Positions 1 through 31,302 of a stretch of 45,020 nucleotides of DNA are shown here, one piece after another; position 1 is the stretch's first letter; every line of letters starts with the position of its first letter. A program made the position numbers and the translations under genes. Source of the stretch: a virus; IMG/VR virus record IMGVR_UViG_3300039186_001681, positions 1 through 45,020 of that record. One strand, 5' to 3'. The notes below the pieces were generated by a model. That model was not told the DNA's origin, ran no database searches, and worked only from the letters and a program-made list of their open reading frames with translations.

Positions 1-606
1 ATTACTCTTAAGTAGACCAGAGTAGAACTTCTGCTCTAAATCTGTACTACGAGTTACCGCCTCAAGTAGGCCAGGTGTTTCTGTATACGTATCAAATGTA
101 GTTTCACTTGTATCAAGCAGATCGACATTATGATAACTATCGATATCCCAAGCTGAAGTAGTACTATCAAACTTATTATTTACACGTACTCCAGTTTGAA
201 ATGATATAGCTACATTTGTCTCAAGTAGGTTGCTTAAGTCTCTAGAAGCGATCTCTTCAAAGTTTTTTACCGCTTCGTCATTAGCCTGACCCATCTTAGT
301 CATATTAAATGAATTAAAGTAAAGTTTAATACTCTTACTCTCGACAATATACTCACTGCTACACGGGTATACACACTTCACAATACCTGTAACCGGTTGA
401 CCATTCTTAAGAAGGAATGAACATTCATATGCATTCCACGTATCTGACCCTACAAACGGTAGATCATCTTCGAAAATATTAAGATATTCTCTATTACTAC
501 TCCGTGGTTCTTTCACTAATAAACCTGCATCATATGTACTCTTATACTGAGACGTCTGACCTAGGTGCTTACTAATATTACTGTTATCTAATTTACTATT
601 TCCCAT
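1..606 (-). CDS. queF: QueF, NADPH-dependent preQ0 reductase (partial, N-terminal 202 residues)
   Basis: The gene starts at ATG 606-604 and runs off the left edge without a stop. The translated part matches the E. coli-type bimodular QueF along its length: a YDAGLL segment near residue 27, PRSSNRE, DDLPFVGSDTWNAYE, the VESKSIKLYFNSFN signature, and finally GLLKSN. In E. coli QueF the catalytic Cys190 directly follows LLKSN, so the window ends one codon before the expected active-site cysteine. QueF reduces the nitrile of 7-cyano-7-deazaguanine (preQ0) to the aminomethyl of preQ1 in the cytoplasm. Its ATG overlaps the stop of the upstream kinase gene by 11 bases, so translational coupling is likely. 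Assignment from residue patterns is strong. Whether the catalytic Cys and Asp are intact cannot be seen here. Confidence 0.9.
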   Translation of the reverse strand, partial: MGNSKLDNSNISKHLGQTSQYKSTYDAGLLVKEPRSSNREYLNIFEDDLPFVGSDTWNAYECSFLLKNGQPVTGIVKCVYPCSSEYIVESKSIKLYFNSFNMTKMGQANDEAVKNFEEIASRDLSNLLETNVAISFQTGVRVNNKFDSTTSAWDIDSYHNVDLLDTSETTFDTYTETPGLLEAVTRSTDLEQKFYSGLLKSN

Positions 607-1144
607 AATTATCAATTGTATTATATATTACTTCTAACCGTTGTTCAACTGTACCCTTTAACCTCACTACATTAATACCGTAATGATCAATAGCAGTTTC
701 AAACAAGTTAATGATTGTATCTCTAAACGACATGTTATTGCTTCTCTCTCCGTCATCAACTAACGGGATATCCGGTTCCGTATAGAATATAACATCTACC
801 TTATGCACCAGTTTCTTAAAGAGATACTCGCAGTATAGCATAGTCTCAGGATCAGTCTTCTCATTATGATACTGATACGTTGTATACACTAACCCATCTA
901 GAATACATCTATCCATAACTGTATCTTTACCTTTTGTTGTAAGGTAGTTCTCTAGATGAGCATTAAGAATAGCTAACTGAGTCATTCCGTCACCATTTTC
1001 ATTGATATCTAACTTATATTTTCTCTTTACTAAACGAGTGACTTCCGGTATAAATTTATACTTTTCAAACCTCTTATCTTTTTTAATCGCTTTTAGTAGA
1101 GTAGTCTTACCTGTACTCTGAGCTCCTGTAAAACTAATAACCAT
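596..1144 (-). CDS. P-loop kinase / AAA_28-like NTPase embedded between dpdA and queF
   Basis: A 182-residue protein from ATG 1144; an in-frame TTG at 1150 is the only earlier start. The Walker A motif is GAQSTGKTT at residues 7-15, and MDRCILDGLVY near residue 97 is typical of the AAA_28/NadR-like kinase group, which phosphorylates nucleosides or small metabolites. It overlaps the dpdA stop by 11 bases and the queF start by 11 bases, so the three genes look like one translationally coupled unit. Position suggests a role in 7-deazaguanine DNA modification, for example phosphorylating a precursor or a modified base, but the substrate cannot be read from the sequence. A general deoxynucleotide or nicotinamide-riboside kinase is the main alternative. 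A second member of the family lies at 24772-25569. Confidence 0.75.
   Translation of the reverse strand: MVISFTGAQSTGKTTLLKAIKKDKRFEKYKFIPEVTRLVKRKYKLDINENGDGMTQLAILNAHLENYLTTKGKDTVMDRCILDGLVYTTYQYHNEKTDPETMLYCEYLFKKLVHKVDVIFYTEPDIPLVDDGERSNNMSFRDTIINLFETAIDHYGINVVRLKGTVEQRLEVIYNTIDNYGK
620..648 (-). promoter_or_regulatory. Possible internal promoter for queF
   Basis: On the minus strand TTGAAC (648-643), a 17-base spacer and TATAAT (625-620) lie inside the end of the kinase gene. The ATG of queF is 13 bases beyond the -10 box, which would give a leader of about 7 bases. The box match is good, but it lies in coding sequence and its spacing to the ATG is longer than in the other promoters of this phage, so it is tentative. 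Confidence 0.35.
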
Positions 1145-5343: not shown

Positions 5344-5795
5344 TTATACAGACCGGCTAATTAACCATTTGCTTCTATAGTTTTTAGTCCATAAAAAAAC
5401 CGCTTTTTGTTTACCAATATCGCGGCCCGCCTTCTCTGATTCAATCCATTTCAATTTATCAATTTCCTGCTGCTCTCGTTTAAGAAATTGATAATAACTT
5501 GAATTTTTAAAGTTTCCCGCAGCCACTATACCTGTATTTAATCTATATTGATACATAAAATATACTATTATCATAGTTAAGCTGCAAATACCTCCAAAAA
5601 TATAATTTGTTAATAGTACAGCATTAATACCTATTGTACCTATAGTATATATACCAGCACAGAAATAGCCAATAAGAGATAAAACGAATAGTGAAATACT
5701 TATATCTTCTACCTTTTTCGTCTTTATAGATTTTACTATTTGCGGTATGTAGCAGACAGCAAAACATATAGTGTATATCCAGCCAATTATTTCCA
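5344..5795 (-). CDS. PQ-loop repeat membrane protein (SemiSWEET-like)
   Basis: About 150 residues from ATG 5795; a TTG at 5817 would add seven residues and overlap the previous gene. Three hydrophobic helices occupy roughly the first 85 residues, and the first loop carries the PQ motif in CYIPQIVKSIKTK, followed by ISLFVLSLIGY, the hallmark of PQ-loop/SemiSWEET proteins. SemiSWEETs have three helices and work as dimers transporting sugars; PnuC vitamin transporters share the fold but lack the same PQ motif. About 60 charged residues follow the helices. The gene is downstream of a DNA-repair gene, and its substrate is unknown. Confidence 0.65.
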
Positions 5796-5804
5796 TTATA
5801 TTAC

Positions 5805-6245
5805 TTAATAGCTCCAAAAATATTCTAACTCTTTACCAACACGTTTAAATTTATCCTTATAAAAGGTATTATCTTTCTTTATAAGATTACTACGATGAGA
5901 TAGATGGACCCTTACATCATTAACGAAACCCGGGTAAACAACGGGTCTTGATTTATCGAAATGCGCTTCTATCTTTTCAGTACACGTATCTTTATACCCC
6001 CTACGTTTCCATTCTTTACAAATAGAAAGGCCATATAAGCATAAGGCGTTTGTATAATCGCCTTTATTATTATACCACATTTTCCTAGCTGGGTGATTCT
6101 TCCAGCCTTTAACTGGTTCGTTATTCTTAAGCTTTTTAATACTGTTAAGAAGTTGTAAAACCTCAACTCGCTGCTTTCCCAGTCTTCTGTAGTCTAGAGC
6201 TTTAGCTGATTCTTTAAATGATGCGTAAGGTAAGAAGGTCTGCAT
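5805..6245 (-). CDS. Pyrimidine-dimer DNA glycosylase family (Pyr_excise, T4 DenV-like)
   Basis: A 146-residue protein opening MQTFLPYASFKESAKALDYRRLGKQR, with GWKNHPARKMW near 47-57 and HLSHRSNLIKK near 114, the pattern of phage Pyr_excise proteins related to T4 endonuclease V. The T4 enzyme cuts at UV-induced cyclobutane dimers using the amine of Thr2. Here Gln is residue 2 and Thr residue 3, so catalysis through an N-terminal Thr would need unusual processing or a different nucleophile. TATAAT lies 6 bases before the ATG, but no convincing -35 box was found. Confidence 0.7.
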   Translation of the reverse strand: MQTFLPYASFKESAKALDYRRLGKQRVEVLQLLNSIKKLKNNEPVKGWKNHPARKMWYNNKGDYTNALCLYGLSICKEWKRRGYKDTCTEKIEAHFDKSRPVVYPGFVNDVRVHLSHRSNLIKKDNTFYKDKFKRVGKELEYFWSY

Positions 6246-15156: not shown

Positions 15157-15332
15157 AGATTAGTAAGCTCATTTTCTACCATTTCTTTAGCTTTCGAAAG
15201 GGATTTAGTTCTAGACACGAAGGAATTAATAGATTTTTCTTCAGTATGAGATTTATATCTCTGATACGACCATGCAGTGTCGCTTAGTAGCATGTTAAGT
15301 ACTACTTTAATCTTATTTTCAATTTCTTCCAT
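15153..15332 (-). CDS. Small 59-residue helical protein
   Basis: An uninterrupted reading frame from ATG 15332 to TGA 15153, beginning MEEIENKIKVVLNMLLS and ending EMVENELTNL. Its start overlaps the upstream stop (TAATG) and its stop overlaps the downstream ATG (ATGA), exactly filling a gap of about 175 bases in a tightly packed operon, which strongly supports it as a real gene. It is probably all-helical and has no recognised family. Confidence 0.7.
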   Translation of the reverse strand: MEEIENKIKVVLNMLLSDTAWSYQRYKSHTEEKSINSFVSRTKSLSKAKEMVENELTNL

Positions 15333-15922
15333 TATAGGTTAATCTTTGTAGTAGCGATAAACATATCATCGACCATCGCATAAAATAGATCAATAATATC
15401 TTTCATGAACTGCTCAGTCTGCTGATCAGTTAATTCAGTGCTATATGCAAAGTTAGGGGCTTTACGACCGGCATTAACATTAATACCTGTATGACCGATA
15501 GCTACATTATCTTTAGAGTATGTTATACTGACACTACACTTACCGACCTTCTGTAGAGTTCCATCACTACCTTCAAATTCATCATGTACCATTAAATCAT
15601 CACCATCAACTTCGATAGGCTTCTTAAGATACTTAGAAGAAAGAACATTAGCAATCTGCGTATTAAGCAATCGCTGAAACGCTACTGCACCGACTTTACA
15701 TAAATTAGGGATCTCCCAACAGAAGTTAATAGCATCATCACTATAAATATAATCACCCTGAAGCACATCTTCTTGGTCGATCATACCGTCAATACTAACA
15801 TCCATCGGACACCTAAACGCAATAATATTACCAATAGGTAGGGTCTTATTACGAAAGTAATCGTAAGCAAACCGCTTATGAATTAATGGACCGTCATACA
15901 CTTTAATATCTTTAATAATCAT
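15332..15922 (-). CDS. DUF366-like protein
   Basis: A 196-residue protein. VYDGPLIHKRF, IIAFRCPMDVSIDGMIDQED, FQRLL, GDDLMV and KCSVSITYSKDNVAIGHTG follow the pattern of the DUF366 family (COG2029) as remembered, an uncharacterised family mainly of archaea and bacteria. It heads the operon 15922 to 14788 or further and has a sigma70-type promoter like those of the deazaguanine genes, so it is probably expressed early. No activity is known. The family call is moderate. Confidence 0.55.
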   Translation of the reverse strand: MIIKDIKVYDGPLIHKRFAYDYFRNKTLPIGNIIAFRCPMDVSIDGMIDQEDVLQGDYIYSDDAINFCWEIPNLCKVGAVAFQRLLNTQIANVLSSKYLKKPIEVDGDDLMVHDEFEGSDGTLQKVGKCSVSITYSKDNVAIGHTGINVNAGRKAPNFAYSTELTDQQTEQFMKDIIDLFYAMVDDMFIATTKINL

Positions 15923-15930
15923 ATAACCAT

Positions 15931-15959
15931 ATTATAGTATATGCAAAGCAAAGTATCAA
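15931..15959 (-). promoter_or_regulatory. Sigma70-type promoter of the DUF366-like gene
   Basis: TTGATA (15959-15954), a 17-base spacer and TATAAT (15936-15931) on the minus strand, 8 bases before the ATG at 15922. The transcript would have a leader of at most two bases. Confidence 0.7.
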
Positions 15960-15973
15960 CTATTTATCATTAT

Positions 15974-16591
15974 TTAACCCCACTTCGCATGTAGAGCGTC
16001 TTCAAGCCCATGCGTCATTTCATGAATATTACTGACAAGGCTATGACTAGCTGATACCTTATGAACTGCAACAGCATTTCCTATTAAACAATGTTTAAAT
16101 CCCTCTCTGGAAATAAAATTACAATAATCATTATCCTGATACCAGAATGAAAAATTCTCATCCCACGCACCCATCCTGTTATATACTTCCATATTAAGAC
16201 CTACACACCAACCTTTAACGAGCTTACCAACTGTGCTGCCTTCAATATTTTTATCCATTTTTGTCTCAGAGGGGCTGACTGAGTCATAGACATCTAACGA
16301 TTTAAATAATTTTTCAATACATCCTTTATCATATATGACATCGTTATTTGATATAATAACCTTTTTACTATCTCTAATATGAGAGAATCCAATATTTAAA
16401 AATCTATTATAATTAAATTCTTCTTCTGGAAATATAAACTGAGCGGGTAGTTTAATATCTTTACTTTTGAGCTTTGAATTAGTTTCAACGACAACTACAT
16501 CACAATCTGCATCAATAGATTCTATACACTCTTTAAGCATATTATAGTATGCCACATCTTTTGTATATGATAATATAAGAACAGTATTCAT
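15974..16591 (-). CDS. GT2-like glycosyltransferase
   Basis: A 205-residue GT-A-type protein: an N-terminal Rossmann start (VLILSYTKDVAYYNMLKECI), SNNDVIYDKG near 80 in place of the metal-binding DxD, GWCVGLNMEVYNRMG and a DENFSFWYQDNDYC acceptor-side motif near 144-158 as in GT2 enzymes. It transfers a sugar from a nucleotide donor; the acceptor is unknown. It is the last gene of the long sugar operon starting at 24367. Confidence 0.75.
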   Translation of the reverse strand: MNTVLILSYTKDVAYYNMLKECIESIDADCDVVVVETNSKLKSKDIKLPAQFIFPEEEFNYNRFLNIGFSHIRDSKKVIISNNDVIYDKGCIEKLFKSLDVYDSVSPSETKMDKNIEGSTVGKLVKGWCVGLNMEVYNRMGAWDENFSFWYQDNDYCNFISREGFKHCLIGNAVAVHKVSASHSLVSNIHEMTHGLEDALHAKWG

Positions 16592-24395: not shown

Positions 24396-24779
24396 ATGGC
24401 CAGCGTAGAAGTAAGTATAAACCAGTTACCGGTAACAAATCAAATCACAGATGGTGATTTTTTAATCATCCAGACTCCTAATGCAACAAATCGATTAGAT
24501 TTTAGTGATTTTGTAGTAGGTTTAGAGAATACAACTTTCTCAAACACTATCATTAACAATACAACTGACATTCAAGCTCTGTCAACTGATGTTGTAACAA
24601 ATACAACAAATATTGAAGCTCTGTCAACTGATGTTGTAACAAATACAACAAATATTGAATCTCTATCAAGTACCTTATATGAAAGTGCACCAGACGCGAA
24701 CATCGGTCAATCTACACATTTAATACCTATAGTTATAGGTGGTGTAAATTACGCTATAATGTTATCGGCTACTAGCTAG
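24396..24779 (+). CDS. Small fibre-like protein with tandem 14-residue repeat
   Basis: A 127-residue protein. Residues 1-45 look like a beta attachment domain (VSINQLPVTNQITDGDFLII); residues 50-95 hold repeats of the form NTTNIEALSTDVVT, a Thr/Asn/Ser-rich pattern typical of trimeric fibre or coiled-coil stalks; the rest is a short beta tip. It is divergent from the glycosyltransferase operon with a shared late promoter region. A tail-fibre or head-decoration part is inferred. The Thr/Ser/Asn-rich repeat is a plausible glycosylation target. Confidence 0.65.
   Translation: MASVEVSINQLPVTNQITDGDFLIIQTPNATNRLDFSDFVVGLENTTFSNTIINNTTDIQALSTDVVTNTTNIEALSTDVVTNTTNIESLSSTLYESAPDANIGQSTHLIPIVIGGVNYAIMLSATS
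24576..24659 (+). repeat. Perfect 42-bp tandem duplication
   Basis: Bases 24576-24617 are repeated exactly at 24618-24659, encoding two identical 14-residue units; a diverged copy flanks each side. The exact match indicates a recent duplication by slippage or recombination and suggests that stalk length can vary. Confidence 0.85.
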
Positions 24780-25569
24780 TAACTTCACCATCTGCCCCGA
24801 GTACTTGCTTAATCTGCTCTCTTTCGTGCGCTAGCGCCTGCGCAAGATCTTTAGCTTCAATCTGCGATTCAATCAAATTCTGCATCGCTTGGGCATCGGA
24901 ATCTAATAACTGACCATCTGACGGATTAATTAGCTCATTTAAACTCTCCGCAGTACCGCCGATTAGATCACCATCAACATCCAAGTATTGTTTAATCATA
25001 GCAATTCGAGTTTGACGGTCACCGAAGACTTCAATCCAACCCGGGGCATCATCCTTCGGAAAGAAAGGATTAGTTCCGTTATTTTCATGATGCTGTGCAC
25101 CAATCATCTTAAAAATATTATCAATTTCCTTAATATAAACTGAATCAACTTCACGTATACCATCCTTTTCAATCTTAACTGGAGCTGCTTTGGTGATAGG
25201 AGTAAAGAATATAATATCTAAATGCTTCATGCTTTCACATACCAACGGTATACACTTATCAATAAACTCTTTATCAATATCACCAACGCCTTTTTCAAAG
25301 CACCATAGTGAATAGATTAAATTATCAATAGGGCATCTGTCCATAATAACATAATCTTCTGACTTAAACGTCTGCATTTCATCAATCATATGATTGAGAA
25401 TTTTCCATTGAGTGTCTTTAGTCGCTTTCTTACTATGAGGTAGTTTTTCTGCAATTAACTTATCACGATATGTCGTACTCTCGGTACGGTAATTTGACCA
25501 TTCCTGTAAAAAGTCATTGATTAAAGTTGTTTTTCCTTGATTACCTGTACCACTAATTGCAATTCTCAT
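24772..25569 (-). CDS. AAA_28/NadR-like P-loop kinase, second member
   Basis: A 265-residue protein: Walker A GTGNQGKTT at 7-15, VIMDRCPIDNLIY near 79-91, as in the kinase at 596-1144. The core of about 200 residues is followed by an extra acidic helical C-terminal tail (about 205-265). It is divergent from the RecB-like nuclease gene. Deoxynucleotide, nicotinamide-riboside or modified-base phosphorylation are all possible. Its stop overlaps the fibre-like gene by 8 bases. Confidence 0.7.
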   Translation of the reverse strand: MRIAISGTGNQGKTTLINDFLQEWSNYRTESTTYRDKLIAEKLPHSKKATKDTQWKILNHMIDEMQTFKSEDYVIMDRCPIDNLIYSLWCFEKGVGDIDKEFIDKCIPLVCESMKHLDIIFFTPITKAAPVKIEKDGIREVDSVYIKEIDNIFKMIGAQHHENNGTNPFFPKDDAPGWIEVFGDRQTRIAMIKQYLDVDGDLIGGTAESLNELINPSDGQLLDSDAQAMQNLIESQIEAKDLAQALAHEREQIKQVLGADGEVTS

Positions 25570-29603: not shown

Positions 29604-30350
29604 CTAGACTTTCAAAGCCATATCCCAGATTACTAACTGCAATCTCGGGCTAAACTTAAGAGTATGTTTCTTGCATAACTCAGCTACCATCGCAGATTTT
29701 GCAGTATGCTCTTCACGACTACCACAGCAAGGCATCAACCATACCCTCTCCCTACTCACTAAACCATTATCGATATACTTCTCAAATAGTTCCTTTTCAT
29801 CATCTTCACTATTAACGACAAACTTAAAGCATGAACCTAGTTCGTTATGGTATTTTAATACTGCAGGTTTATATCTAAGCTTTTCTGCATCACCATTATT
29901 ACTCATCTTAGGAGATACGGTAAAAGTTGCTTTATATATTGAAGCCCATTCAGGTAAAGGCATTAGAGATCCATTCGTTTCAAAATCAATACGAGGAGAA
30001 AAATTAAATCTATCTATAAACGATACCAACCAACTCATCAACCTCTTCTGCTGCAGCAAAGGTTCTCCACCGGTAATCTTTAATATAGCACCGTCCTTAA
30101 GATTCTGAACAAAACCATTATTCTCATAGAAGTTATTAAGCTCATCATATGTATATCGATTCTTAACTGACCAAGATACAAACGAATCACAACCATGAGG
30201 TGAATCTTCAGATGCGAAACCTTTACATGTAAGATTACACATCGATAATCTCATAAATACAGAAGGCTCTCCTATAAATTTACCTTCACCTTCAATAGTA
30301 TAAAAGACGTGATCGTCACTTAAGCTTAGAGTTTTATTTAAATCTACCAT
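29604..30350 (-). CDS. queE: 7-carboxy-7-deazaguanine synthase QueE (radical SAM)
   Basis: A 248-residue protein. YTIEGEGKFIGEPSVFMRLS (17-36) is the QueE opening. Cluster cysteines are C38, C42 and C54 (CNLTC, then GCDSF), a C-x3-C-x11-C spacing with an insert compared with the plain CxxxCxxC. ILKITGGEPLLQQK near 90 binds SAM, and RIDFETNGSL near 118 and FTVSPK near 137 are further QueE landmarks. It converts 6-carboxytetrahydropterin to 7-carboxy-7-deazaguanine, the third step toward preQ0. It has its own sigma70-type promoter and leads a two-gene operon. Confidence 0.9.
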   Translation of the reverse strand: MVDLNKTLSLSDDHVFYTIEGEGKFIGEPSVFMRLSMCNLTCKGFASEDSPHGCDSFVSWSVKNRYTYDELNNFYENNGFVQNLKDGAILKITGGEPLLQQKRLMSWLVSFIDRFNFSPRIDFETNGSLMPLPEWASIYKATFTVSPKMSNNGDAEKLRYKPAVLKYHNELGSCFKFVVNSEDDEKELFEKYIDNGLVSRERVWLMPCCGSREEHTAKSAMVAELCKKHTLKFSPRLQLVIWDMALKV

Positions 30351-30660: not shown

Positions 30661-31302
30661 TTATTTATTACCCCATGATGTACCGGCAAATGGGTCTCCC
30701 ATACCGCCAGTTACTTTACTGTATAATGGTGGCTTATTAGGCTCTTCAGCTGCAGCTTCTATTACCGGTTTAGACTCTTCTACAGGTACTTCAACTATAG
30801 AATTTTCAATAACTGCAGTTGCTGTCTTAACTTCATCTTGTAGGTTTAATGTAATATCACCTAAACTTTCTTCATAAATAGCGCTATTACCTTCGTGTTC
30901 CCATACTTCAACTTTAATAACTCTTACACGGTTATTAGTCTGCTCTGTTACGAACTTATTTGTTGTATCGTATACCCATTCAGCAGTTCTTTCAATACCA
31001 ACACCCTTCTCAGCAATACGAAGATCGATCATACCCTTTCCAGACATCAACTTAAATGTATCTAATTCAGGATCATCAGCTGCTACTACTGTTGTATGAT
31101 CAAATTGCTTCTCGAGAAGCTTTTTAATATCTCTACAGCCTCCAAAATCATATATCCAATTTTTGTCATCTAATGCATCTGATGTAAACCATAATTTACA
31201 CTGTAGACGGTAACCATGAATTAATTTACAATGACTATCTGCTCTCCATTGCCGAAAAGCTGTACTACCCATAGGAATGATTTTAGTTGATATATATCTC
31301 AT
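30661..31302 (-). CDS. queD: QueD / 6-pyruvoyltetrahydropterin synthase-like
   Basis: A 213-residue protein. FRQWRADSHCKLIHGYRLQC (17-36) matches the QueD active-site region with the catalytic Cys at 25, but the usual HGH zinc pair reads HGY, so one zinc ligand is replaced. WIYDFGGCRDIKKLLE, FDHTTVV and EVWEHEGNSAIYEE follow as in family members of marine T4-like phages. It makes 6-carboxytetrahydropterin from the FolE2 product. Residues about 160-213 are an extra Pro/Glu-rich tail. It has a sigma70-type promoter with +1 on the ATG. Confidence 0.83.
   Translation of the reverse strand: MRYISTKIIPMGSTAFRQWRADSHCKLIHGYRLQCKLWFTSDALDDKNWIYDFGGCRDIKKLLEKQFDHTTVVAADDPELDTFKLMSGKGMIDLRIAEKGVGIERTAEWVYDTTNKFVTEQTNNRVRVIKVEVWEHEGNSAIYEESLGDITLNLQDEVKTATAVIENSIVEVPVEESKPVIEAAAEEPNKPPLYSKVTGGMGDPFAGTSWGNK
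30662..30669 (-). promoter_or_regulatory. Late promoter inside the 3' end of queD
   Basis: AATAAATA on the minus strand overlapping the queD stop, 7 bases before the ATG at 30654. Confidence 0.55.

Follow-up and report, generated by a model that had tools for sequence, protein, structure and literature searches.

A small P-loop kinase encoded between dpdA and queF raises the question of what a kinase contributes to the 7-deazaguanine modification of phage DNA. The gene was found in a 45,020-nt stretch of viral DNA (hereafter the window; positions 1 to 45,020 of IMG/VR record IMGVR_UViG_3300039186_001681), which its gene content marks as a fragment of a T4-like phage. An initial annotation had proposed that the kinase phosphorylates a deazaguanine base inside DNA and so marks a tailoring step on preQ1 or preQ0.

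The dpdA-kinase-queF cassette and its conservation

The cassette is encoded on the minus strand and consists of a gene for a putative DpdA-type transglycosylase of 263 aa (1134–1925), the kinase gene (596–1144; 182 aa plus stop), and queF, encoding a predicted preQ0 reductase, of which the window end leaves only the 5′ part (1–606). The kinase gene overlaps each neighbor by 11 nt, as the initial annotation had read exactly to the base. The 3′ end of dpdA reads ...GGATATGGTTATTAG, so the kinase ATG is inside dpdA (shared bases ATGGTTATTAG, 1134–1144), and the 3′ end of the kinase gene reads ...AATTATGGGAAATAG, so the queF ATG is inside the kinase gene (shared bases ATGGGAAATAG, 596–606). The portion of queF present scored 105.7 bits against QueF_N (PF14819; cut-off 25.6, E 2.2e-30) and matched TIGR03138 at 2e-39, and queF is complete in the loci of relatives. 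A QueD-like 6-carboxytetrahydropterin synthase (30661–31302, minus strand; PF01242 7.6e-18, phrog_2389 1.9e-34) and a QueE-like 7-carboxy-7-deazaguanine synthase (29604–30350, minus strand; phrog_2076 3.9e-46, TIGR03963 6.8e-16, under its cut-off) are encoded elsewhere in the window, so the phage probably makes its own deazaguanine precursors. Other genes of the window encode a DUF366 protein (15332–15922; PF04017 1.6e-21, no PHROG match) and a pyrimidine dimer DNA glycosylase-like protein adjoining a PQ-loop membrane protein (5805–6245 and 5344–5817).

The IMG/VR scan with the dpdA family identified 536 relatives and the kinase-side scan 260; the best 80 of each were read, so rarer arrangements may be missed, and the two scans have many contigs in common and are not independent samples. 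Among the best 80 of the 536 dpdA relatives, the kinase gene is immediately downstream of dpdA in 78 and the order dpdA-kinase-queF is found in 76; two of the four loci without queF stop at the contig end, and the other two (L116 and L117) have dpdA alone. Contigs of L116 and L117 encode a kinase elsewhere (G001 15702–16277). Among the best 80 of the 260 kinase relatives, dpdA is present at every locus and queF at 78, the remaining two ending at the contig edge. The same isolate records hold the closest kinases (37–40% identity) and the closest dpdA genes, and in 18 of 18 the kinase gene is beside dpdA. The conserved adjacency that the initial annotation had suggested surveying is therefore real, relatives of the kinase are not mostly found away from deazaguanine genes (80/80 of the best metagenomic relatives and 18/18 of the closest isolates have it beside dpdA), and chance adjacency can be rejected on this co-localization.

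The dpdA-kinase-queF trio is thus a conserved unit. In the four relatives examined in full it stands apart from the virion genes on either side, which are encoded on the other strand and whose capsid and prohead identity is our reading of their sequences. The pairwise distances of the three genes correlate (Mantel r 0.78–0.82), which shows joint inheritance of the trio and nothing more. Conservation does not extend to the overlap of exactly 11 nt, the spacing from the dpdA stop to the kinase ATG being −11 in 46 loci, −4 in 14, +1 in 12, −7 in five, and +4 in one. At one locus (L050:3117–3668), the kinase frame is split in two and the dpdA and queF frames are intact. Remoter relatives of the kinase are encoded outside such clusters in a Streptomyces phage, in a Campylobacter phage as a paralog by topoisomerase genes, and in the window itself, where a second predicted AAA_28 kinase (24772–25569, minus strand; PF13521 4.3e-9, phrog_2107 2.3e-14) is 28% identical to the cassette kinase (3.3e-9). 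This second protein has a C-terminal extension, and paralogs were found in five of the six larger window-type contigs searched.

Sequence and predicted structure of the kinase and DpdA

The kinase has the Walker A motif GAQSTGKT and matches AAA_28 (PF13521, E 1e-20) and phrog_2107 (6.7e-32). Its predicted structure (pLDDT 92.9) has the RNK fold, with the NadR RNK domain as best structural match (8x7f, Z 19.1), followed by vaccinia thymidylate kinase (TMK) and Mycoplasma mycoides deoxyadenosine kinase (both Z 16.6) and human dCK/dGK (Z ~16). The sequence profile matched Aquifex thymidylate kinase first (2pbr, 2e-5) and then NadR (0.01). Arg79 of a DR motif is invariant in 30 sequences and aligns with Arg90 of the Aquifex TMK, whereas NadR has DTD, with Thr at this place; the kinase has both the thymidylate kinase fold and the DR motif. 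The family models for individual activities all fell short: 13.8 bits for thymidylate kinase (TIGR00041, cut-off 83), 26.4 bits for NadR (TIGR01526, cut-off 341; DTD absent), and 20.4 bits for deoxynucleoside kinase (PF01712, gathering score 27), the fold of the last being similar at Z ~16. Together, sequence and model clearly point to membership of the NadR/thymidylate-kinase/deoxynucleoside-kinase clan, and the fold fits nucleoside, nucleoside-monophosphate, and nicotinamide riboside kinases about equally. The profile of the 5-hmdU DNA kinases, PF18748, did not match the kinase at E ≤ 0.1 but matched the positive control M6 gp054 at 7.7e-18, and the kinase has no significant similarity to M6 gp054 itself; PF18748 was likewise absent from 17 records searched, including the controls in that set. 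The M6 gp054 protein (L139:11686–12249) is annotated as a terminase small subunit in spite of its PF18748 match, and phrog_800 bears the same doubtful name. We found no description of the kinase in the literature searched, which excluded the central DpdA3 paper (Cui 2023).

The window DpdA has no Pfam match but matches phrog_19058, is 46–51% identical to Campylobacter and Flavobacterium immuto phage proteins, and belongs to a short type of 256–266 aa. Its predicted structure (pLDDT 93.3) is a minimal TGT/DpdA barrel of 262 residues, superposing on archaeal TGT (1iq8; Z 17.2, rmsd 2.9 over 232 residues) and on a bacterial DpdA (7ui4, Z 16.9). Three aspartates, D52, D83, and D204, are invariant in seven divergent members and, judged by their motifs, may correspond to the TGT aspartates used in catalysis and base recognition; the same alignment offered no conserved stretch for a degenerate search. 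Compared as sequence profiles, this DpdA and DpdA1 of 9g gave no significant match, so that the two proteins are connected by fold only, and a PDB sequence search with the DpdA profile gave no match. Two possible signs of a DNA as opposed to a nucleotide substrate were discarded: the CxCxxC zinc motif is present in no phage DpdA, and the pI ranges of this DpdA type (4.6–6.6) and of the controls (5.6–9.3) overlap and do not discriminate.

Kinases at other loci of the short DpdA type

In the phages compared that encode DpdA proteins 23–27% identical to that of the window, other P-loop kinases occupy the same place. An AAA_18-type kinase gene is directly upstream of dpdA in Cellulophaga phage phiST and Chryseobacterium phage MA9V-3, the gene for a phrog_761 "thymidylate kinase" overlaps dpdA by 4 bases in Bacillus phage BSTP12 and Weizmannia phage Youna2, and a DNMK-family kinase is encoded ~6 kb downstream of dpdA, in the same gene run, in Brevundimonas phages. 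In all, kinases of at least three P-loop families were found within 2 kb of dpdA at 11 of 14 loci of this DpdA type, and further away in the record at the other three (L116, L120, and Brevundimonas), vs. none of 21 DpdA1/2/4 controls (DpdA1, DpdA2, and HVTV-1 loci). Not all loci are independent, the 14 amounting to about four or five lineages and the controls to roughly a dozen, and the enrichment rests on few independent lineages. One P-loop motif match in L126 was judged spurious; ~3 kb from dpdA, that locus encodes a NadR-like protein, part of which is probably an adenylyltransferase, and phage nt-1 encodes an AAA_28 protein 200 kb from dpdA.

Similarity between the kinase groups was not significant in pairwise comparison, but the window-family profile gave weak matches to the Bacillus/Weizmannia and DNMK kinases, so that the groups may share a superfamily, as remote members, and not be unrelated in the strict sense. 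Each partner family is similar to nucleotide kinases or carries such a name (AAA_28/TMK-like, phrog_761 thymidylate kinase, AAA_18, and DNMK). That different nucleotide kinases should repeatedly have been recruited to a single partner is hard to explain unless phosphoryl transfer belongs to the DpdA pathway.

Several further features of these loci were recorded. In metagenomic relatives, the AAA_18-type kinase is fused behind a phrog_17812 domain (L119:5030–5983 and L120:2279–3265; ~2.7 kb from dpdA in L120), and in phiST the phrog_17812 protein, T-fold-like by eye, has a gene of its own immediately before the kinase gene (L037:5174–5521). The Brevundimonas DpdA relatives are annotated as hypothetical proteins, and their genes precede that of DNA polymerase in a run of deazaguanine genes (L040:6833–7633 and L041:6833–7633), and the StAshley copy had no PHROG match. 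Among viral contigs, no relatives of the Bacillus/Weizmannia and Brevundimonas DpdA proteins were found, so these lineages rest on few isolates. A DNA polymerase gene directly follows dpdA in the Bacillus, Weizmannia, and Brevundimonas phages. Pyrophosphohydrolase or HD genes are near dpdA in immuto, phiST, L118, and CP220, and no MazG, HD, or PRA-PH genes were found in window-type contigs of up to 221 kb. In CP220 an HD phosphohydrolase fused to an AAA_33 kinase domain is encoded directly upstream of dpdA (L034:4868–5899). Phosphoribosyltransferase genes are found in or beside deazaguanine clusters (L033:2354–2749 and L119:4035–4553). QueC is absent from phiST, MA9V-3, and L118–L120, and no preQ1 is therefore expected there, nor preQ0 from the phage genes of phiST and MA9V-3.

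Possible roles of the kinase

That the kinase belongs functionally with dpdA and queF, as the initial annotation held, agrees with the survey; that it phosphorylates deazaguanine within DNA ahead of further tailoring is a part of the proposal that we now consider improbable. An operon with dpdA and queF would suit such a role, and 5-hmdU DNA kinases, also P-loop proteins, act in DNA hypermodification (PMC6449724). Those kinases are PF18748 proteins, the family that the window kinase failed to match while the control did; the kinase is moreover kept in CP220, whose product is ADG, and the window-type unit includes no further tailoring gene. A step on preQ1 or preQ0 in DNA also sits poorly with the kinases kept in QueC-less phiST, MA9V-3, and L118–L120, and with phage Dp-1, whose cluster lacks such a kinase although QueF and DpdA1 give it dPreQ1 at ~1.7% of G (PMC6884629). 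Still less probable is a nicotinamide riboside kinase that supplies NAD(P) to QueF, the "ordinary kinase" outcome that the initial annotation had allowed for. QueF uses NADPH, and AAA_28 membership and the top structural match to the NadR RNK domain would fit this role, which we nevertheless rejected because DR replaces the DTD of NadR, the TIGR01526 score is far below its cut-off, no adenylyltransferase (NMNAT) domain is present, and Campylobacter phages keep the kinase beside dpdA where no queF adjoins.

The explanation that we tentatively prefer, and which as a whole could easily prove wrong, is that this phage protein is a (deoxy)nucleoside-monophosphate kinase serving the 7-deazaguanine pathway alone and acting before replication. 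QueF would convert preQ0 to preQ1, the short DpdA would put preQ1 in place of guanine on a free deoxynucleotide, in the simplest case dGMP, and the kinase would take the d(7-deazaG)MP so formed, possibly a poor substrate of host guanylate kinase, a phosphorylation step towards the triphosphate. Incorporation of the product by the phage DNA polymerase would then lead to complete replacement of G, and the pyrophosphohydrolase and HD genes near dpdA in several lineages, though none is recognizable in window-type contigs, recall MazZ and DatZ of the Z-genome phages (PMC8342488) and would agree with a removal of dGTP. We infer the substrate of the kinase, the nucleotide-level action of DpdA, and the prereplicative timing; the finding of different kinases in the same place suggests that the modified base enters DNA during copying, as a ready-made free building block, and is not swapped into finished DNA. 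In phages CP220 and CPt10, which carry this kinase, dG was measured to be completely replaced, with 100% dADG (Crippen 2019, as cited in PMC8306585), and in 9g, Dp-1, and nt-1, which have no kinase beside dpdA, modification is partial (PMC6884629). A single measured lineage underlies the correlation of the kinase with complete replacement. A nucleotide-pool route would be the simplest joint account of the kinase, complete replacement, and the short DpdA. We advance more tentatively still the general form of this reading, that short-DpdA phages replace all G through pool 7-deazaguanine deoxynucleotides, by DpdA exchange and a kinase drawn on at least three occasions from different P-loop families.

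This pool-based reading contradicts the published postreplicative view. To our knowledge, the transglycosylases known to have the TGT fold act on polymers; Crippen reportedly detected no dADG phosphates in infected cells in 2019, and the conclusion of Cui in 2023 is said to have been postreplicative insertion. DpdA is also listed as a nucleic-acid-level modification (PMC12783734), and DpdA1 of 9g modifies plasmid DNA (PMC6884629). The main rival, which we consider unlikely, keeps DpdA exchanging guanine in DNA after replication and has the kinase act on normal nucleotides, taking released guanine (as GMP or dGMP) towards GTP or supplying ordinary dNTPs. It agrees with the TGT fold of DpdA and with the variety of nucleoside-monophosphate-kinase-like families adjoining dpdA, and phosphoribosyltransferases encoded near dpdA in immuto and L119 could turn guanine into GMP. 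However, such genes were found in two lineages only, the host already has a guanylate kinase, the stand-alone unit holds dpdA and queF alone with the kinase, and a kinase so closely paired with a single DpdA type, and missing at DpdA1/2/4 loci, is more than general salvage would need. Were the pool-based route correct, the postreplicative model would be overturned for the short-DpdA branch, and 7-deazaguanine genomes would join Z-genomes as pool-based genetic alphabets. The short DpdA would then be, as far as we know, the first TGT-fold transglycosylase working on free nucleotides. A kinase beside one DpdA type only points to a route behind complete as opposed to partial replacement that could be tested with two purified proteins.

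Among known systems, the closest are Campylobacter Firehammervirus CP220 and CPt10, whose DpdA and kinase are 46–47% and 38–40% identical to those of the window, with the kinase gene directly downstream; they differ in having no adjoining queF, in the HD and AAA_33 fusion upstream, and in the product ADG (PMC8306585). The dpd cluster of Flavobacterium immuto is similar (DpdA 51% and kinase 37% identical, with queF directly following) but has a formyltransferase gene between dpdA and the kinase gene and PRA-PH pyrophosphohydrolase and phosphoribosyltransferase genes nearby. The PurZ/MazZ/DatZ system of 2-aminoadenine phages would be alike in drawing a modified dNMP from the pool, phosphorylating it, and incorporating it by polymerase (PMC8342488), whereas here a free base would be exchanged by a TGT-fold enzyme rather than made by PurZ, and MazG or HD genes are present in some lineages only. 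M6 gp054 is likewise a small P-loop kinase encoded among DNA modification genes but of a separate family. The DpdA1 and DpdA2 clusters of 9g, Dp-1, and nt-1 also combine deazaguanine synthesis genes with a TGT-fold insertase; they differ from the window cassette in having no kinase within 2 kb of dpdA, a usually larger insertase, and partial modification (PMC6884629).
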